From Persicimonas caeni (GTDB lineage: Bacteria; Myxococcota_A; Bradymonadia; Bradymonadales; Bradymonadaceae): a stretch of DNA of 64,000 bases. A model generated the notes under the pieces. That model had not been told where the DNA came from, did no database searches, and saw nothing but the letters and a program-made list of their open reading frames with translations. Shown here piece after piece: positions 11,950 to 63,332 of the stretch (the first letter of the stretch is position 1; each line of letters starts with the position of its first letter). The position numbers and the translations under genes were made by a program. The stretch spans positions 3,809,074 to 3,873,073 of the forward strand of contig NZ_CP041186.1 in the NCBI RefSeq assembly GCF_006517175.1, read 5' to 3'.

Positions 11950-14900
11950 ATGTCTCGACGTAGATTTTTACCTTTCGCATTTCTGCTCGCGCTTTTCGCG
12001 CTCTTGCTGCTCAACAGTTGCGGGCGATCGGTGCTCGGAGATCGCTGTCAAACCGACGCCGACTGTGACGCCGGAGCCCAGTGCATCGGCAACTACTGTT
12101 CGCAGCCGGTCGCGTGTATCGACTCGACCGATTGCGCCGACGGCGAGATTTGCCGCGCCGGGGTGTGCACCGTGCCGGTCGATTCGTGCACGGTCGATAG
12201 CGATTGCGACGAGGGCGAAGTCTGCGTCGACGGCGCCTGCCAGATCGACGAGGTCTGCCAGACCGACGCCGACTGTGACGAGGGCGAGGTCTGCAACGCC
12301 GACACCGGCCAGTGCGTCGGCAGCGAGTGTGAGGACGACTTCGACTGCAGCTTCGGTGAAGTCTGTGTCGACGGCGTGTGCGAAGACGACTGCGCCTGCG
12401 CGACCGACGAGGATTGCCCGTTCGGCTACGTCTGCGACGGCTGTGAATGCCGCCAGCGCGGCGAGTGCACGAGCGACCAGGATTGCGCGGACGGCGAATA
12501 CTGCAACGCCGACAATATCTGCGTGGAGATCCCGCCGGAGTGCGAGATCGACGACGACTGCACCGACGGCATGATCTGCGAAGACGGAAGCTGCCGGCTC
12601 GGCTGTCGTCAAGACCGCGACTGCCCGCCCACGACCGTCTGTGAAGACGGCGTGTGCGTGGCCGAGTGCTTCGAGAACTCCGATTGTCCCAACGATGAAA
12701 TCTGCCGCGACAACGTCTGCGTGGTCGCCGAGTGCCAGGCCGACGCCGACTGTGGCCTTGGTGGCACCTGTAACGACGGCACGTGCGAATACGATCGCTG
12801 CCAGAGCGACACCGACTGCGACGCCGGCGAGCAGTGCGCCGACGGGATCTGCATCCCCCGAGAGCCGCCCGCGTGCGTCGACGACCGCGACTGCGCGATG
12901 GACGAGTTCTGCAACGAGGCCGGCGAGTGCGAGTTGATCGCTCCCGATTGCGTGCTCGACAGCGATTGCGACCCCGGCGAAGTCTGCATCGATGGGCGCT
13001 GCCTGACCGACGTGGAGTGCCGCATCGACGAGGATTGTGGTCCCAATCAGGTCTGTGTGAGCAACGCCTGCGAGCCGGCGGGCTCCTGCCAGGCCGACAG
13101 CGACTGCGGCCCGGCCGAGCGCTGCATCGGTGGGAGCTGCTTCTTCGTCGGTGATTGTCGCGGCGACGACGACTGTCGCCCCGACGAGATCTGCAACGAG
13201 AGCTTCCGCTGCGAGCGCGTCGATTCGTGCGACAACATCTCTTGCCCGCCCGATACGGTCTGTCAGGACGGCCAGTGCATCCCGACCAGTCAGTGTCAGA
13301 TTGACGCCGATTGCCCGGCCGACTTCCTGTGCGATCCGGCCACTGGCCAGTGCGTGCCACGTCCGCCGCAGTGCCAGATCGACGCGGATTGCCCCGGTGA
13401 CGAATCGTGCGTCAACAACCAGTGCGTCTTCACCGGCGACTGCCGCAGCGACTCCGACTGTCGCACCGGCGAGGTCTGCCAGAACAACTTCTGCACCAAC
13501 CCGGGCGGCTGCAGCCGTGACTCCGATTGCCCCTCCGGCGAAGAGTGTGAGCCGATCTCGCGCACCTGTCAGCCCGAGGTCGATTGCACCAGCGACGCCG
13601 ACTGTCAGCAGGGCTTCCAGTGCATCGGCGACCGATGCGTCGATGTGCGCCAATGCACCAGCGACGCCGACTGCCCGACCGGCGCGGTCTGCAACGATTT
13701 CTTCTGCCAGCCTGCGCCCGAGTGCCGCGTCGACAGTGATTGCCCGCAGGGCCAGCGCTGCGACCTGAATAACTGCGTGGCCCAAAGCTGCACCGACGCC
13801 AACGACTGCCCGCCCGCCTGGCAGTGCATCGCCCAGCGCTGCGCGCCGCCGCTGTTGTGCCAGAGCGACTCGGACTGCCCGCTGCCCAGCATGCAGTGCA
13901 TCAACAACACCTGCCAGGATCCCACCGGCTGCCAGAGCGACGCCGAGTGCCCCGGGCCGACCAGCTGCGTGGCTGGTCAGTGCCTGCCGGTGCCGCCGGC
14001 CAACTGCCAGACCGACGCCGACTGCCCCAGCGGGCGCATCTGTGAGTTCGGCTTCTGCATCCGTCCCCCCGGCGAGTGCCAGTTCGACAGCGACTGCGGC
14101 CCCAACGAGCGCTGCCTGAATTACCAGTGCCAGTTCGTGCCCGAGTGCAGCGCCGACAGCGATTGCGCTCAGGGCGAAAGCTGCGTCAACGGCACGTGTC
14201 AGTCCACCGCCCAGTGCACCACCGACAGCGACTGCGCGCTCGGCGAGACCTGCGACAGCGGCCAATGTGTGCCGCAGCCCGGGTGCACCACCGACAACGA
14301 GTGCGCCGACGGCGAAATCTGCCAGAACGGCCGCTGCGGGCCGGGCTGCCGCATCGACGCCGACTGTGAGTCGGGCTTCGAATGCTCTCCCAGTAGCAAT
14401 ACCTGCGAGCCGATCACCTCGCAGTGTGTCGACGACGCCGACTGCCCCACCGGTGAGGTCTGCGACCGCGGTGTGTGCATCCCCTCGAACAATCAGTGCA
14501 CGAGCGACGCCGACTGCCCCACCGGCACCGAATGCCTGGCCGGGCAGTGCAAGACGCCGCCGGCTTGCCGAAACGACAGCGACTGCTCGAGCGGCGAACG
14601 CTGCGACTTGTTCAGCGGCGAGTGCATCGCCGACACCACCTGCTCGACCGACAGCGACTGCCCCACCGGTCAGTTGTGCATCGGCGACCAGTGCAGCCAG
14701 GTCTCCGGCTGCCAGACCGACAATGACTGCCCGTCGGGCACCGAGTGCCGCAACAACGTCTGCCTGATCGCCGGCGACTGCCAGAGCGACAGCGACTGCG
14801 GCGCCAACGAGCGCTGCGAGTTCCAGTACTGCCAGCCGACGACCTGTCAGAGTGACAGCGACTGCGCCAACACCTTCCAGTGCCTGGCCAACCGCTGCGT

Positions 14901-15267
14901 GCTCGGACCCTACTGTGGTCAAGACAGCGACTGCCCGAACCCGTCGCAGTGCATCAACAACACCTGTCAGAACCCGGGCGGCTGCACCGCCGACAGCGAC
15001 TGCCCCTCCGGTCAGTACTGCTGGGCCGGTGCCTGCTACGCCATCCCCGCGCCCGAGTGCTCGGTCGATGCCGACTGCGGCCCCAATCAGGAGTGCAATT
15101 ACGGCTTCTGCCAGGACACCTCGGTGCAGTCATGCCGCATCAACTCCGACTGCCCCACCGGCGAGTTGTGCGTCAACGGCACCTGCCAGTCGGGCACCCA
15201 GTGCCTCGACGACGGCGACTGCAACTTCAACGAAGTCTGCCGCGGCGGCCAATGCGTGGTCCCTTAA
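11950..15267 (+). CDS. Giant lipoprotein of 46 tandem four-cysteine repeats
   Basis: A 1105-residue secreted lipoprotein: signal peptide of 24 residues with lipobox L-N-S-C, then almost nothing but repeats. By hand I count 46 units of about 23 residues with the pattern C-x4-D-C-x5-6-C-x3-5-C, typified by CQTDADCDEGEVC. Unit 18 (CDNISCPPDTVC) is shortened. Nearly all units carry Asp before the second Cys, giving roughly 184 cysteines and a highly acidic chain. It resembles Dickkopf-like or EB-type cysteine-rich repeat families in spacing, but no enzymatic domain is present. Early units are acidic (DEGEVC), later ones Pro/Thr/Ser-rich (CPTG). It is probably a disulfide-rich surface rod; calcium or metal binding is possible. 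A perfect terminator follows at 15301. Confidence 0.92.
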   Translation: MSRRRFLPFAFLLALFALLLLNSCGRSVLGDRCQTDADCDAGAQCIGNYCSQPVACIDSTDCADGEICRAGVCTVPVDSCTVDSDCDEGEVCVDGACQIDEVCQTDADCDEGEVCNADTGQCVGSECEDDFDCSFGEVCVDGVCEDDCACATDEDCPFGYVCDGCECRQRGECTSDQDCADGEYCNADNICVEIPPECEIDDDCTDGMICEDGSCRLGCRQDRDCPPTTVCEDGVCVAECFENSDCPNDEICRDNVCVVAECQADADCGLGGTCNDGTCEYDRCQSDTDCDAGEQCADGICIPREPPACVDDRDCAMDEFCNEAGECELIAPDCVLDSDCDPGEVCIDGRCLTDVECRIDEDCGPNQVCVSNACEPAGSCQADSDCGPAERCIGGSCFFVGDCRGDDDCRPDEICNESFRCERVDSCDNISCPPDTVCQDGQCIPTSQCQIDADCPADFLCDPATGQCVPRPPQCQIDADCPGDESCVNNQCVFTGDCRSDSDCRTGEVCQNNFCTNPGGCSRDSDCPSGEECEPISRTCQPEVDCTSDADCQQGFQCIGDRCVDVRQCTSDADCPTGAVCNDFFCQPAPECRVDSDCPQGQRCDLNNCVAQSCTDANDCPPAWQCIAQRCAPPLLCQSDSDCPLPSMQCINNTCQDPTGCQSDAECPGPTSCVAGQCLPVPPANCQTDADCPSGRICEFGFCIRPPGECQFDSDCGPNERCLNYQCQFVPECSADSDCAQGESCVNGTCQSTAQCTTDSDCALGETCDSGQCVPQPGCTTDNECADGEICQNGRCGPGCRIDADCESGFECSPSSNTCEPITSQCVDDADCPTGEVCDRGVCIPSNNQCTSDADCPTGTECLAGQCKTPPACRNDSDCSSGERCDLFSGECIADTTCSTDSDCPTGQLCIGDQCSQVSGCQTDNDCPSGTECRNNVCLIAGDCQSDSDCGANERCEFQYCQPTTCQSDSDCANTFQCLANRCVLGPYCGQDSDCPNPSQCINNTCQNPGGCTADSDCPSGQYCWAGACYAIPAPECSVDADCGPNQECNYGFCQDTSVQSCRINSDCPTGELCVNGTCQSGTQCLDDGDCNFNEVCRGGQCVVP

Positions 15268-15427: not shown

Positions 15428-16066
15428 ATGAAGGACGACCAGCTACGTTTAACCGAAATCTTCTACAGCATCCAAGGCGAGTCCACGCGCGCCGGGCTAC
15501 CGTGCGTCTTTGTGCGGCTGTCGCGTTGCAATCTGCGCTGCTCGTGGTGCGACACCCCCTACTCGTTCAAAGGGGGCGACAAGAAGAGCCTTGACGACAT
15601 CGTCGCCCAGGTCGAGAGCTACGGCTGTAACTTGGTCGAGATCACCGGCGGAGAGCCGCTACTGCAGCCCGACGTCCATCCGCTGATGACACGGTTGTGC
15701 GACGAGGGCTACGAGGTGCTCATCGAGACGTCCGGGTCGCTCGACATCGCGCCGATCGACGATCGGGTGCGCGTGATCATGGACCTGAAGGCGCCGGGCA
15801 GTGGCGAGGTGGAGAAGAACCTGTGGGAGAATATCGCCGAGCTCAAGCCGACGGATGAGGTCAAAATCGTGGTGCTCGATCGGCAGGACTTCGACTGGGC
15901 GGTCGAGGCCTGCCGCGAGCACGAGCTGTTCGAGCGTGTCGATGAGGTCCACTTCTCGCCGGTGCACGGCGAACTCGACTCGAACACGCTGGCGAATTGG
16001 ATCTTGGAGGAGAGGCTTCCGGTCAGGCTGAACTTGCAGATCCACAAGTTCATGGGGGTAGAGTGA
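15428..16066 (+). CDS. queE: 7-carboxy-7-deazaguanine synthase
   Basis: Radical-SAM enzyme that converts 6-carboxy-tetrahydropterin to 7-carboxy-7-deazaguanine in queuosine biosynthesis. Of 212 residues, the N-terminus reads LTEIFYSIQGESTRAGLPCVFVRL, the family signature, followed by the cluster motif C-N-L-R-C-S-W-C at about 38-45 and the SAM-binding ITGGEPLLQ. ATG at 15428 is chosen because this is where homology begins; an in-frame start at 15404 lies upstream. The protein is the length usual for the short QueE type. No other queuosine gene is nearby. Its 3' end abuts a degenerate copy of the nested-hairpin element at 16070. Confidence 0.95.
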   Translation: MKDDQLRLTEIFYSIQGESTRAGLPCVFVRLSRCNLRCSWCDTPYSFKGGDKKSLDDIVAQVESYGCNLVEITGGEPLLQPDVHPLMTRLCDEGYEVLIETSGSLDIAPIDDRVRVIMDLKAPGSGEVEKNLWENIAELKPTDEVKIVVLDRQDFDWAVEACREHELFERVDEVHFSPVHGELDSNTLANWILEERLPVRLNLQIHKFMGVE

Positions 16067-16069
16067 CGA

Positions 16070-16163
16070 CTATTTGAGCTGACAAAGTACGATTTGGGGG
16101 CTGCCGCACTGGATATCCGTGCAAAATCACGACCCTCAAATTGTAGTTTGTCTGCCGCAATAG
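16070..16163. repeat. Nested-hairpin intergenic element, degenerate copy C
   Basis: A 94-bp stretch filling the gap between the convergent queE and IHF genes. It begins CTATTTGAG, ends CAATAG, and contains the motif ACGACCCTCAAATTGTAGTTTG (16129-16150), with ACGATTTGGGGG as the opposing arm. The same motif recurs in copies A (29005) and B (35559). The small GAGGGCG hairpin and the conserved tail of the other copies are missing. It may work as a bidirectional terminator. Confidence 0.7.
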
Positions 16164-16165
16164 AC

Positions 16166-16456
16166 TCAGTTGTACTCGTTGAGGACGTCGACGCGCTCGC
16201 GCAGTTCCTTGCCCACCTTGAAATGCACTGACTTCTTGGCGTCGACGAAGACCTCTTCGCCGGTGCGCGGATTGCGACCCACGCGGGCGTCGTACTCGCG
16301 GATCGAGAAGCTTCCAAAGCCGCGCAGCTCGATACGGTCTTCCTGGAGCAGCGCGTCCTTCATCGCATCAAAAATTGCATTGACCACGTCATAGGCGCGG
16401 TTTTTGGGGATATCGATGCGCTCGGCAACAACTTCGATAAGTTCGGATTTGGTCAT
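16166..16456 (-). CDS. Integration host factor / HU-family DNA-binding protein
   Basis: A 96-residue nucleoid protein that bends DNA as a dimer. The sequence starts MTKSELIEVVAERI and carries RIELRGFGSFSIR, the beta-arm GRNPRTGEEV and a C-terminal HFKVGKELRERV. The N-terminal TKSELIE and the GRNPRTGE arm tip with its intercalating proline fit the IHF-beta type better than classical HU. Length is normal for the family. A perfect inverted repeat lies upstream at 16480. It is convergent with queE. Confidence 0.93.
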   Translation of the reverse strand: MTKSELIEVVAERIDIPKNRAYDVVNAIFDAMKDALLQEDRIELRGFGSFSIREYDARVGRNPRTGEEVFVDAKKSVHFKVGKELRERVDVLNEYN

Positions 16457-28980: not shown

Positions 28981-29004
28981 GGCGCCTCGGTTTTCGAAGG
29001 CCTG

Positions 29005-29155
29005 CTATTCGAGGCGAGGGCGAATGACGCCCTCGATAAACTACAATTTGAGGGTCGTTTCGATGCGGCTTATGTGATCGTTGGCACGACCCCCAAATTG
29101 TAGTTTGCGCCGAATTTCAGGCGCCTAAAATAGCAGGCGCCACTCATCTGCAAGG
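29005..29155. repeat. Nested-hairpin intergenic element, copy A
   Basis: Lies between hutU and hutI. The ends form an inverted repeat: CTATTCGAGGCG (29005-29016) against GGCGCCTAAAATAG (29120-29133). Inside are a perfect 8-bp hairpin CGAGGGCG-AATGA-CGCCCTCG (29015-29035) and a long hairpin whose arms are CTACAATTTGAGGGTCGT (29041-29058) and ACGACCCCCAAATTGTAG (29087-29104). A tail CAGGCGCCACTCATCTGCAAGG follows to 29155. Copy B at 35559 shares every part, with compensated differences. It could be a MITE-like element or a transcribed three-way-junction RNA. Confidence 0.85.
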
Positions 29156-29180
29156 CGAACGAACGGAACGACACACACCA

Positions 29181-32565: not shown

Positions 32566-35556
32566 ATGGAAAAACTGATGGGCAACCTCAAGCGCCACGG
32601 GCGTTTCATTGTCGCCTTCCTCTCGCTGGCCATCGCGTTTGTTCTGAGCGTTCAGTTCAGCGACCGCGGGGTGCAGTTCGATTTGAAGAACTCCGAGGTG
32701 TCGGCCTCCGAGGGTAAAGACGGCGAGTACGACTTGTCGGCGCTCAAGATCCTCAACCGGGTCTTGCTGCGCATCAAGGACAACTATGTCGAGCCCGAGC
32801 GCGTCGACCCCAACAAGATGCTCATCGCCGCGCTCGACGAGGTGCAAAACTCGATCACCGAGTTGGTGGTCACCTTCGTGGGGGGCAAAGAGAACCCGTC
32901 GGCCATCAAGGTCCACGTCAACGGGTCGACCAAAAGCTTCAAGGTCAAGGAACTCGAGAGCCTCTGGGAGATGAGCTTCCGGCTGCAGAAGATGTTCCGC
33001 TTTGTCGAAGAGCATCTGCAGGAGGACCCCGATCTCGACTTTCGCGAGATCGAGTACGCCGCCATCAACGGTATGCTCACCACCCTCGACCCGCACAGCA
33101 CGCTCCTGCCGCCTCGCCACTACGAGGAGATGCAGACTCAGACCGGCGGTAAATTCGGCGGCCTGGGCATCGTCATCTCCATCCGTGACGGCGAGCTCAC
33201 CGTCATGAGCCCGATCCCGGACACCCCGGCGGCCAAGCAAGGCATCAAGGCCAAAGACAAGATCGTGCGCATCGGCGAAGAGTCGACCATCAACATGAAC
33301 CTCAACGAAGCCGTCAGCATGATGCGCGGCGAGCCGGGCACGGCGGTCGATATCTGGATCAAGCGCAAGGCGTGGAGCGAGCCCAGAAAGTTCACCGTGA
33401 CCCGCGCGATCATCAACATCGAGTCGGTCGACAGTCAGGCCTTGGGCGACAAGGTCGGCTACATCCGCATCAAGAACTTCCAGGCCAACACCCACAGCGA
33501 CCTGGTCAAGCACCTCAAGAAGCTCAAAAAGAAGATGGGCGGCATGCAGGGGCTCGTCCTCGACCTGCGCGACAACCCCGGCGGTCTTCTGGACCAGGCC
33601 ATCAAAGTCAGCGACGCCTTCCTCGACCAGGGAGCCATCGTCAGCACCGTGGGCGTGGGGAACAAGATGCGCGACAAAAAGGTCGCCACCAAGTCGGGCA
33701 CCGAGCCCAAGTATCCCATCGTGGTGCTGGTCAACGCCGGCAGCGCCTCGGCCTCCGAGATCGTCAGCGGCGCGCTGCAGAACCACGACCGCGCCCTGGT
33801 CGTCGGTGACACCACCTTCGGCAAAGGCTCGGTCCAGGTGCTCTACGAGTTCAACGACAACTCGGCGCTCAAGCTGACCGTGGCCCAGTACCTGACCCCG
33901 GGCGACATCTCCATTCAGGGCAAGGGCATCGCCCCGGACCTGCGCCTCGTGCCGGTGGCGCTGGCCGACGGCGAGGCCGACATGTTCCTGTCGAACAATA
34001 TTTTGCGTGAGAGCGACCTCGAGAGCCACCTGTCCAACGCCGCGGCGCACGCCGCCGGTGACGGCGTCGGCTTTGTGCGCTTCCTCGAAGACGTGCCCGC
34101 CGACGGTGAAGAGGAGGAGTTCGAAGATCCCAACGCCTTCAAAGAGGACTTCGAGATCAAGTTCGGCCAGCAACTCGTCGCCGCCGTGGGCAAGACGTGG
34201 AAGCGCCAGGCGCTGCTCGAGAAGCTGCAGCCCGAGCTCGGCAAGATCTCCGAGCGTGAGATGAAGGAGATTCAGAAAAAGCTCTCCACGCTCGACGTCG
34301 ATTGGTCTGAAGGTGAAAACCCGGAAACGGCCAACGTCGACCTCGAAGTGACCACCTCGGTCGACAAGGATACCGTCAAGGCCGGCGAGAAGGTCAAAAT
34401 CACCGCCAAGGCCACCAACAAGGGCAAAAAGACCCTGCATCGCCTCAAGGCCATCTCCTCGAGCGACAACCCCGTGCTCGATGACAAGGAGTTTTTGTTC
34501 GGTAAGCTCGCGCCCGGTGCGTCCAAAGAGTGGACCGTCGAAGTCGAGCTTCCCAAAGACGCCATGAGCCGCCACGACCTGCTCGAGTTCCAGGTCAGCG
34601 GCCCCGAAGACAAGTTCGGTGACACGGTCAAAAAGCCGCTTCGCATCGTCGGCCTCGACCGGCCTCAGTTCGCCTTTGCCTACGAAGTGGTCGACGCCAG
34701 CGGCGACGGCGTGCTTCAAAAGGACGAGAAGGTGACCTTCCGCACCATCGTCAAGAACGTCGGCCAGGCCGACAGCAACGAGACGATGGTCTACCTCAAA
34801 AACCTCGCCGGTGAGGCCGTCTACCTCGACAAGGGCCGCGTCAAGATCGACAAGATCGAAAAGGGCACCGAAGAGGTCGCCGAGTTCGAATTCCACCTCA
34901 AGGAGATCCCCGAGAACGATTACATCGAGCTCGAGATCGACGTCTTCGACAACGTCTTCCGCGACTTCGTCCACAAAAAGATCAAGGTGCCGTTTGCCGC
35001 CAGCAAGGACAAGGTCGCAGACGCCAAGGGCGTGGCCAAGGTCAAAAGCGGCCCGGCTAAGCTCTTCCTGGGGGCCACGACCAAGGCCGATGTCGCCGCC
35101 ATGGCCGACAAGGACGCCACCCTGCCTGTGGTCGGAAAGCTCGACGATTGGGTCAAGGTCGACCTGGGCCGACGCAAGGCTTGGATCCAGAAGTCGCTGG
35201 TCGACTACGATTCGGGCGCCACGGCCGAACTCAGCGGCGTGACCCGGCGCAACAACTTCCAGTCGCCGCAGGTCGAACTCAACCCGTCGACGATGATGAC
35301 CTCCAAGGACTCGGTCTCGCTCGAGGCGGTCGTCGAAGATGATTCGTCCATCAAGGACTACTACATCTTCGTGGTCAACCGACAGGACGCCACCAGCATC
35401 AACACGCGCAAGCTCGAGTACACCAAGGTCGACGGCCAGAAGGCCGAGATCGCCTCGAAGATTCCGCTGTTCAAGGGGATGAACCGCGTCTCGATCATCG
35501 CGCGTGACGAAGACGGCATGCAGACGAGCCAAGACACGTACATCTACCGCAACTGA
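32566..35556 (+). CDS. S41-family C-terminal processing protease with large C-terminal extension
   Basis: A 996-residue periplasmic protease anchored by an N-terminal segment (residues 12-29). A PDZ domain lies at about 185-275 (GLGIVISIRDGELTVMSPIP, KAKDKIVRIGEES). The S41 catalytic core has LDLRDNPGGLL, the nucleophile Ser in AGSASASEIVSG near 395 and the general-base Lys in TTFGKGSVQ near 420. Typical CtpA proteins end near residue 450. Here about 500 residues follow: helical acidic region, an immunoglobulin-like CARDB-type segment (KVKITAKATNKGKKTL), a second one with a calcium-like loop (DASGDGVLQKDEK), an SH3b-like part (GPAKLFLGATTKADV...DDWVKVDLG) and a final beta domain. The extension may direct it to peptidoglycan. 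Confidence 0.92.
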   Translation: MEKLMGNLKRHGRFIVAFLSLAIAFVLSVQFSDRGVQFDLKNSEVSASEGKDGEYDLSALKILNRVLLRIKDNYVEPERVDPNKMLIAALDEVQNSITELVVTFVGGKENPSAIKVHVNGSTKSFKVKELESLWEMSFRLQKMFRFVEEHLQEDPDLDFREIEYAAINGMLTTLDPHSTLLPPRHYEEMQTQTGGKFGGLGIVISIRDGELTVMSPIPDTPAAKQGIKAKDKIVRIGEESTINMNLNEAVSMMRGEPGTAVDIWIKRKAWSEPRKFTVTRAIINIESVDSQALGDKVGYIRIKNFQANTHSDLVKHLKKLKKKMGGMQGLVLDLRDNPGGLLDQAIKVSDAFLDQGAIVSTVGVGNKMRDKKVATKSGTEPKYPIVVLVNAGSASASEIVSGALQNHDRALVVGDTTFGKGSVQVLYEFNDNSALKLTVAQYLTPGDISIQGKGIAPDLRLVPVALADGEADMFLSNNILRESDLESHLSNAAAHAAGDGVGFVRFLEDVPADGEEEEFEDPNAFKEDFEIKFGQQLVAAVGKTWKRQALLEKLQPELGKISEREMKEIQKKLSTLDVDWSEGENPETANVDLEVTTSVDKDTVKAGEKVKITAKATNKGKKTLHRLKAISSSDNPVLDDKEFLFGKLAPGASKEWTVEVELPKDAMSRHDLLEFQVSGPEDKFGDTVKKPLRIVGLDRPQFAFAYEVVDASGDGVLQKDEKVTFRTIVKNVGQADSNETMVYLKNLAGEAVYLDKGRVKIDKIEKGTEEVAEFEFHLKEIPENDYIELEIDVFDNVFRDFVHKKIKVPFAASKDKVADAKGVAKVKSGPAKLFLGATTKADVAAMADKDATLPVVGKLDDWVKVDLGRRKAWIQKSLVDYDSGATAELSGVTRRNNFQSPQVELNPSTMMTSKDSVSLEAVVEDDSSIKDYYIFVVNRQDATSINTRKLEYTKVDGQKAEIASKIPLFKGMNRVSIIARDEDGMQTSQDTYIYRN

Positions 35557-35558
35557 CT

Positions 35559-35708
35559 CTATTTGAGGCGAGGGCGAACAACGCCCTCGCAGAACAACGA
35601 TTTGAGGGTCGTTTCAATCACCACAGTCGGTGCATTGAAACGACCCTCAAATTTTTTGCGCCGCTTTTCAGGCGCCTCGAATAGTAGGCGCCACGCCTCT
35701 GCAAGGCC
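35559..35708. repeat. Nested-hairpin intergenic element, copy B
   Basis: Fills the gap between the convergent S41 protease and bcp genes. The ends CTATTTGAGGCG (35559-35570) and GGCGCCTCGAATAG (35671-35684) pair. Inside are CGAGGGCG-AACAA-CGCCCTCG and the long hairpin with arms CGATTTGAGGGTCGTTTCAAT (35598-35618) and ATTGAAACGACCCTCAAAT (35634-35652). TTTTTT follows the second arm. The tail TAGGCGCCACGCCTCTGCAAGG matches copy A. The long stem differs from copy A, yet stays fully paired. Confidence 0.85.
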
Positions 35709-35711
35709 TAC

Positions 35712-46117: not shown

Positions 46118-46311
46118 ACAAGCAGATCCCTGCGGATACGTCGGGCAAGTTTCTCCGGTCGACTGTACGACATGCGCCCCGATTCGCAAAGTCGCCCGGA
46201 CCGGTTGCCCCCGAAAAAGGACGCCGGCAGACGCCACAACCGCATCCAACCCTGCCACGATTTCAGCCACCATGCTGAAAACAGAAAATTCACCCCGATC
46301 TCGCCGCTCCC

Positions 46312-46338
46312 CCCACACGGTGTCAGACACCGTGTGGG
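46312..46338. repeat. REP palindrome, copy upstream of the RAYT gene
   Basis: CCCACACGGTGT-CAG-ACACCGTGTGGG is a perfect 12-bp hairpin with a 3-base loop. The core CGGTGTCTGACACCG (minus-strand reading) recurs at 48043 and 48076, and imperfectly at 47704. It lies in the otherwise empty gap 46118-46496, 158 bases before the transposase start. Confidence 0.85.
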
Positions 46339-46496
46339 TTAGCTTTCATGCGCATCACGGCGCGATCGGGGAGCCGATCTTCTGCCGCATCTCCGAAAAA
46401 AATTTCGCTCGATCACGCAACGAATCTCCCCTTTTTGCCGAAAACCGTAATGAGGGCTGTAGACGAACCTTCAATTATTCACGGAGCACGGCACCC

Positions 46497-47459
46497 ATGG
46501 GACACCCGCTGCGAAATCAGGAAAAGGACGCCATCTACGAACTCGGCAACCGCACGCTGCACCAGATCTATGCGCTTTTGCCCGAAGAGCAGGTCAACGC
46601 CATCATCCTGGGACTGCTGTCCAAGTACGCCTGGATGTATGGGGTCGAAATCTTCGCCTTTTGCTTCATGTCCAATCACTTCCACATCCTGGCGCGCTGT
46701 CGCTCGCTGCAGATGCATCTGTTCATGCGCGACTTCCAGAGCCAGCTCGCTCGAAAGATCAACAAGTTACGCAACCGCACGGGCACCTTCTGGGAGCGTC
46801 GCTACACCGCAACCAAGGTCCTCACAGACGAGGCGATGCTCCAACGCCTGCGCTACATCGTGTGCAACCCGTCTGAGTCGAACCTCGTACACCACCCGAA
46901 GCAGTGGCCGGGGCTGTGCTCGTGGGACATCCACAAAAGCGGAAAGCCGATGGTGGGAGAGGTCGTCAACCGCAAGACGTACTGGGCGGAGAAGCGCAAG
47001 AAGAAGAACGAAGGCAAGACCGAAGCCGAGCTCATCGAGATGGCCACCGAGCGGTATGCGCTCGAGATGGCCAAACTTCCGCAGTGGCAGGAGCTCGACG
47101 ATGACGCCTACCACCAAAAGATCGTCGACGAGTGCCACGAGCACGCAGGTGAGCTGGCCAAAAGGCGCAAGACTCCGTGTTTAGGGCCCCAGAAAGCGCT
47201 CAGTGTGAAGTGGAACGACCGCCCCAAAAAACCCAAGAAGGCACCGCGTCCCCTGTGCCATGGTGGCGACTGCAAGCAGCGCCAAACCTACCGCGAGGAC
47301 TACTTCGCCCTCGTGACTCGCTACCGAAAGGCCATCGACCGATGGCGCAACGGAAAGTCACCGGTGACTTTCCCCGACGGCACCATCCCACCGGGCCGCC
47401 AGTTCTGCGTGGGCGGCAGTCACGACATTCGCCGTGAGCCGCCGCCGACGCTCAACTGA
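46497..47459 (+). CDS. REP-associated tyrosine transposase (RAYT, HUH/Y1 family)
   Basis: A 320-residue single-strand DNA transposase of the IS200-like family that is associated with REP palindromes. The HUH motif is in FCFMSNHFHILARC near residue 60 (H-F-H). The catalytic Tyr lies in the helix around ERRYTATKVLTDEAMLQRLRYIVCNPSES. The start is the ATG at 46497 with GGAG at 46483. A C-terminal extension of about 100 charged residues goes beyond the usual RAYT length. REP-like hairpins lie 158 bases before and about 245 bases after it. It has no terminal repeats of its own, as expected for domesticated RAYTs. Confidence 0.9.
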   Translation: MGHPLRNQEKDAIYELGNRTLHQIYALLPEEQVNAIILGLLSKYAWMYGVEIFAFCFMSNHFHILARCRSLQMHLFMRDFQSQLARKINKLRNRTGTFWERRYTATKVLTDEAMLQRLRYIVCNPSESNLVHHPKQWPGLCSWDIHKSGKPMVGEVVNRKTYWAEKRKKKNEGKTEAELIEMATERYALEMAKLPQWQELDDDAYHQKIVDECHEHAGELAKRRKTPCLGPQKALSVKWNDRPKKPKKAPRPLCHGGDCKQRQTYREDYFALVTRYRKAIDRWRNGKSPVTFPDGTIPPGRQFCVGGSHDIRREPPPTLN

Positions 47460-63253: not shown

Positions 63254-63265
63254 GTGTAAGGGGGG

Positions 63266-63332
63266 GACTAAGAGTTACTAAGGGTGACTAAGAGTTACTA
63301 AGGGTGACTAAGAGTTACTAAGGGTGACTAAG
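63266..63332. repeat. Tandem 20-bp repeat array
   Basis: GACTAAGAGTTACTAAGGGT occurs three times without change (63266-63285, 63286-63305, 63306-63325), then a partial GACTAAG. It lies directly after the RNA terminator. Confidence 0.95.

Follow-up and report, generated by a model that had tools for sequence, protein, structure and literature searches.

Dispersed cloverleaf-forming DNA repeats in Persicimonas caeni and their association with a small Y1/HUH transposase gene

Two copies of a nested-hairpin element share a four-way fold

Two intergenic sequences in a 64,000-nucleotide stretch of the Persicimonas caeni genome (hereafter the window), designated copies A and B, share an arrangement of nested hairpins, raising the question of what they are and how they came to lie where they do. 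An earlier note on this DNA suggested that they could form a three-way-junction RNA or represent a MITE-like element. The sequences confirmed both copies and the layout that note described (Table 1), in the order CTATT...GGC, H1 (GAGGGC stem), H2, H3 (GCGCC stem), GCC...AATAG, and tail. The outer repeat, the GAGGGC hairpin H1, and the long hairpin H2 had been recognized, but a third GC hairpin, H3, had been overlooked, and once H3 is counted, the fold becomes a four-way junction, or cloverleaf, rather than a three-way one. Folded as single-stranded DNA, both copies were far more stable than shuffled sequences (z -6.6 for A and -9.6 for B, with 0 of 200 shuffles as good), while the degenerate copy C gave a z of -3.55.

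The tail of copy A, GGCGCC..TCTGCAAGG, extends to about 29156 and that of copy B to 35711. The conserved unit reaches beyond the core at both copies, where a foot motif, AATAGCNGGCG-N8-CTGCARGGC, is found; in the whole window this motif has only two occurrences, one at each of these copies, against an expectation of 0.06. As previously described, copy A follows hutU and copy B follows a protease gene: the genes adjoining A are hutU and hutI, and those adjoining B encode an MXAN_5808-type S41 peptidase and thiol peroxidase. Copy B occupies the entire convergent gap between its neighbors, from stop codon to stop codon.

Table 1. Coordinates of the repeat copies in the window and of the RAYT-A gene
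Feature	Position	Strand	Remarks
Copy A, whole element	28981..29157	+	between hutU and hutI; left foot is the second type (GGCGCCTCGGTTTTCGAAGGCCTG), right foot the common type
Copy A, core CTATT ... AATAG	29005..29133	+	145 bits to model R1; R1 match 28996-29142
Copy A, hairpin H1	29015..29035	+	CGAGGGCG-N5-CGCCCTCG
Copy A, long hairpin H2	29038..29106	+	AAACTACAATTTGAGGGTCGT ... ACGACCCCCAAATTGTAGTTT
Copy A, hairpin H3	29107..29124	+	GCGCC-N8-GGCGC; GTAGTTT before it
Copy A, right foot	29129..29156	+	AATAGCAGGCG-N8-CTGCAAGGC; motif also clustered around sister transposase RAYT-B
Copy B, whole element	35557..35711	+	between S41 peptidase and thiol peroxidase genes; no left foot
Copy B, core CTATT ... 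AATAG	35559..35684	+	132.6 bits to R1; R1 match 35550-35693
Copy B, hairpin H1	35569..35589	+	GAGGGC stem
Copy B, long hairpin H2	35599..35655	+	loop inverted relative to copy A
Copy B, hairpin H3	35658..35675	+	GCGCC-N8-GGCGC
Copy B, right foot	35680..35707	+	1 mismatch to foot motif
Copy C, degenerate simple form without H1/H3	16061..16172	.	25 bits to R1; nearest to RAYT-A flanking repeats, z 16-21
RAYT-A (L034)	C1:667997-668503	minus	single-copy Y1/HUH transposase gene

The element belongs to a dispersed family with a conserved cloverleaf

When copy A was used as a DNA query against its own genome, 79 matches were obtained, many of them arising from opposite strands or fragments of a single locus. 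A covariance model, R1, was subsequently built from 20 aligned copies; in the genome of 8,047,206 bases it detected about 65 distinct places, 43 of which score at least 50 bits and 29 at least 100 bits. Copies A and B belong to a family that comprises about 40 to 65 self-folding and probably mobile DNA repeats in this predatory bacterium. The search of relatives that the earlier note had proposed also yielded matches: at an E value of 0.001, R1 matched 4 of 57 related genomes (G002, G014, G017, and G020), all of one related genus, and none of the remaining 53, indicating that, as far as searched, the family is confined to the bacterial family of the host.

Within the 20 aligned copies, 95.3% of pair cells were standard pairs, compared to 39-50% when the partners were slid by 1-3 columns, and double changes were present at 10 pairs, located in H1, H2, and the outer stem. 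The clearest compensation in the genome-wide family is in H2, where GGGTCG/CGACCC is replaced by GTGTTC/GAACAC or, in longer form, the arms GGGTCGTTTC/GAAACGACCC by GTGTTCCCC/GGGGAACAC. The earlier claim that the long stem varies yet stays paired is therefore upheld across the genome, but not by the two copies on which it was based, as A and B alone provide little evidence of compensation in this stem. That note had also named a lack of further copies and of compensated changes as evidence against its reading, and both were found. The compensated changes represent few lineages and do not amount to a large number of independent events; they could also be generated by hairpin template copying, without selection for structure.

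Scoring of the 29 strong copies identified H1 in 26 of them and H3 in all. In the aligned copies from this genome H1 and H3 are unlike, departing from the inverted pairing of REPs within a REPIN, and since mutual pairing is impossible, the clover is the only fold; some G014 copies carry two H3-type hairpins. The orientation of the H2 loop relative to H1/H3 is divided 13 versus 7 among scorable copies, suggesting inversion or recopying of H2. In 24 of the 29 strong copies, H3 has GTAG or GTTG a few bases ahead of it; this tetranucleotide is absent from copy B, and the outer foot is frequently GTAGGCC, but variable. An open frame of some kind is present in 19 of the 29 cores.

Some loci (L013, L004, L020, L026, and L016/L019) contain a second, truncated copy in tandem, broken within the H2 loop, or have H2 duplicated internally, which suggests that the hairpin caused slippage or that strand transfer was aborted there. 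Separately, a row of weak, closely spaced R1 matches, each about 179 nt long, at G000:C1:6155394-6157192 (L082) looks like an array of a related palindrome.

Members of the family flank a Y1/HUH transposase gene

The host genome contains 26 Y1_Tnp matches, the six strongest of which cover the domain almost end to end. All six of these genes have adjoining repeats, and near-identical direct copies flank those at L032 to L035. The repeats flanking one of them, RAYT-A, are two 126-nt direct copies, 94% identical, with the ends CTATTTG...AATAG and the arms ACTACGATTTGGGGGTCG/CGACCCTCAAATTGTTGT. R1, whose training set did not include these loci, has matches on either side of RAYT-A (L034:1182-1324 and 2115-2257) and on either side of a 57% identical homologue in G014 (L104/L128), apparently the MAG Myxococcales bacterium CSSed165cm_511; the flanks of this homologue include the H3 hairpin and the CTATTTG end. 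RAYT-A and its homologue thus share the arrangement of a REPtron, in which a Y1/HUH gene lies between copies of the repeat. When copies A, B, and C were aligned directly to the RAYT-A and G014 flanks, z values of 6-21 were obtained, while values for the flanks of other Y1 genes in the same genome were mostly about 0-3, the exceptions being copy A with the RAYT-C flank (6.5) and copy B with the L031 flank (3.5). An autonomous IS200/IS605 insertion sequence, for which several near-identical transposase copies would be expected, was rejected, as the next-best match to RAYT-A in its own genome is 58% identical. No relative of RAYT-A was found in viral contigs.

The weaker R1 matches in G002, G017, and G020 occur without a close RAYT, and no R1 matches were found flanking the Y1 genes of these genomes; their assemblies are in 490-610 contigs, so that losses during assembly are possible. 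Co-occurrence at the family level was not significant (among 21 genomes, each of the two was present in five, and both together in two).

We consider it probable that copies A and B represent REPIN-like mobile DNA that is non-autonomous, folds into a cloverleaf, and is moved in trans by a small Y1/HUH transposase.

The transposase resembles TnpAY1 subclass 1.2 and has sisters in the same genome

The A2 alignment contains an invariant HxH and an invariant Y-N3-QK-N2-H, the latter represented by YVVHQKDNH, YIAHQKDHH, YVDKQKEHH, and YVAKQKKRH, in which the first H of HH varies. The proteins match Y1_Tnp, and the NCBIfam IS200 model was matched by all four of the host's short proteins tested, two of them above the cut-off, while none of the same four matched the REP_Tyr_transpos model. 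A class-2 TnpA-REP was ruled out on this basis and because all A2 members have Y---Q--H rather than Y---NP. The nearest solved structures to the RAYT proteins are the ISDra2 and ISHp608 TnpA. Assigned by motif only, the enzymes resemble TnpAY1 subclass 1.2 of Quentin 2018 (PMC6006769), in which this subclass was listed without REP and mainly in Cyanobacteria and Bacteroidetes.

Two sister enzymes share 56% (RAYT-B, 6,666 kb) and 45% (RAYT-C, 4,646 kb) identity with RAYT-A, and each has its own dispersed palindromes, so that all three, like the transposases of REPtrons, are accompanied by a repeat family of their own. The RAYT-A and RAYT-B families have the foot motif in common: it has 7 matches in the 8 kb around RAYT-B, with 0 expected. 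The H2 arms of copies A and B match the RAYT-A flanks. Given that the foot is found with RAYT-B and the core with RAYT-A, the full element is a mosaic of both, and because the copies flanking RAYT-A lack H1/H3 and the foot, the mover of the full form may be either sister enzyme.

Other Y1 genes were also noted. At L032 (C1:6464265-6464603, minus strand), such a gene lies between two 236-nt direct repeats that are 99% identical, fold at -181 to -190 kcal/mol as RNA, and are unrelated to the window family; this is possibly a recent, active unit. The genome also contains about 20 Y1 genes of greater length (roughly 260-520 aa), which form a set separate from the short RAYTs, and the window itself encodes a 395-aa Y1_Tnp protein (46272-47459) that matches the NCBI REP-associated tyrosine transposase model below the cut-off.

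Placement of the copies favors mobile DNA over RNA

Genomic context was derived from simple gene calls based on codon usage, among which hutU and hutI are recovered. Nearly all copies are intergenic (59 of 61), and the 61 gaps comprise 44 co-directional, including two overlapping cases, 13 convergent, and 4 divergent; REPs also prefer unidirectional and convergent gaps (PMC3733652). The co-directional intergenic copies include 21 in the sense and 21 in the antisense orientation. Target-site duplications, which the earlier note had proposed looking for at the ends, were not found in the 10 copies with both feet, where the observed value equaled that of the shuffled control. Intergenic, orientation-balanced placement without target-site duplication fits mobile DNA better than RNA. 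In several relatives, hutU adjoins hutI without the element, and copy A therefore looks like a lineage-specific insertion, although these gaps are too diverged for base-exact empty sites. The hutU-hutI gap in two related genomes, G018 (L209) and G013 (L211), contains other short tandem hairpins (GGGTGCCAGGCGTTCGATCG), implying that palindromes without relation to one another accumulate in this gap.

A transcribed structured RNA, or an mRNA 3'-end stabilizer or terminator, kept for its RNA fold would account for the strong fold and covariation and for copies lying mostly downstream of genes. However, the exact balance of orientations, the lack of T-run terminators, the lack of any Rfam match at gathering scores, the absence of the element from the relatives' hutU-hutI gap, and the presence of the repeat on either side of a transposase gene argue against this explanation, which we regard as very unlikely, and the three-way-junction RNA of the earlier note was not borne out. 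Some copies may still have a secondary RNA effect. An intrinsic terminator or promoter role was rejected, as a search for such patterns at the copies found none, and an attC/integron reading was dropped because no GTTRRRY/RYYYAAC ends were seen.

The alternative suggestion of a MITE-like element proved correct insofar as the copies are dispersed, multi-copy, lineage-specific, and tied to a transposase, with H2 in both orientations, but not with respect to target-site duplication or the type of enzyme, which is a Y1/HUH single-strand transposase. Decaying relics of a classical MITE, derived from an unseen DDE transposon with the ends CTATT or GGCCTTGC, would likewise be multi-copy, non-coding, and bounded by terminal inverted repeats; given the 10 testable copies without duplication and the match of the copies to repeats flanking a Y1/HUH transposase, such an origin is very improbable.

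It is also conceivable, if unlikely, that the elements spread earlier and are now domesticated, for example as putative cruciform or nucleoid-protein binding sites or topological insulators. Their gap-filling position, the excess of convergent over divergent gaps, and the extreme stability of the DNA fold are consistent with this idea, but the foot and H2 sequences vary widely among copies and the truncated tandem copies look neutral.

A proposed mechanism and comparison with known systems

For elements mobilized in trans by a Y1/HUH transposase, the following mechanism is likely by analogy with IS608 and TnpA-REP (PMC8266576). Mobilization, recognition, nicking, the strand used, and current activity are inferred, whereas the family itself, its fold, its placement, and the repeats on either side of the transposase gene were observed directly. 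One strand would become single, for example on the lagging-strand template, and would fold into the cloverleaf, with the feet and CTATT/AATAG forming the outer stem, together with the GC hairpins H1 and H3 and the long H2. RAYT-A (C1:668 kb), and possibly also RAYT-B, supplied in trans, would recognize the hairpins, and the transposase tyrosine would nick near or at the feet. The folded strand could then be moved or copied and rejoined in intergenic gaps without target duplication. More tentatively, it is possible, though we lean against it, that enzymes of the subclass 1.2 kind mobilize palindromes in Bradymonadales, with non-equivalent side hairpins locking the clover and with foot and core modules reshuffled between sisters; such a reading would liken the element to a single compact unit that combines the hairpins found at the left and right ends of IS608.

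Like the REPIN/REPtron systems (Bertels and Rainey 2011, PMC3116915; Nunvar 2010, PMC2817692), this family consists of dispersed, extragenic, multi-copy palindromes with tandem clusters, compensatory changes in a spacer hairpin, and copies on either side of a single-copy tyrosine transposase gene. A less stable 'clover' fold was considered for REPINs (Bertels and Rainey 2011, PMC3116915), whereas here H1 and H3 do not pair and the clover is the sole fold; in addition, the unit measures about 155-200 nt, GTAG at the foot appears not to be strict, and the enzyme has Y---Q--H instead of the class-2 Y---NP. With TnpAY1 subclass 1.2 (PMC6006769), the system shares a core-only Y1 protein near IS200, a signature resembling Y---Q--HH, and a low copy number, but at least four such genes with adjoining long palindromes are present in one Bradymonadales genome. 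TIRtrons/TIRYT (Di Nocera 2013, PMC3733652) likewise have tyrosine transposase genes flanked by long dispersed repeats, some self-complementary; their flanks, however, are terminal inverted repeats, many with GGGGWSAS, and their proteins belong mostly to subclass 2.1, whereas the flanks here are mainly direct copies of a multi-hairpin element. The PATEs of Haloquadratum (PMC3119063) are similarly transposase-free, palindromic, linked to the IS605 type, and without target duplication, but lack terminal inverted repeats, while the ends here are inverted repeats.

REPtron-like systems would thereby be extended to a transposase subclass and a bacterial class for which no report of them was found, and the family would provide a natural repeat for which the hypothetical clover is the sole available fold. 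With three sister enzymes, three palindrome families, and mosaic elements in one genome, P. caeni is a good place to study repeat recognition.

Other features of the window

Elsewhere in the window, a 1105-aa open frame (11950-15267) contains cysteine-rich repeats, many of them about 69-75 nt apart, and a tandem repeat, GAGTTACTAAGGGTGACTAA, composed of alternating 10-base units, is located at 63262-63332.
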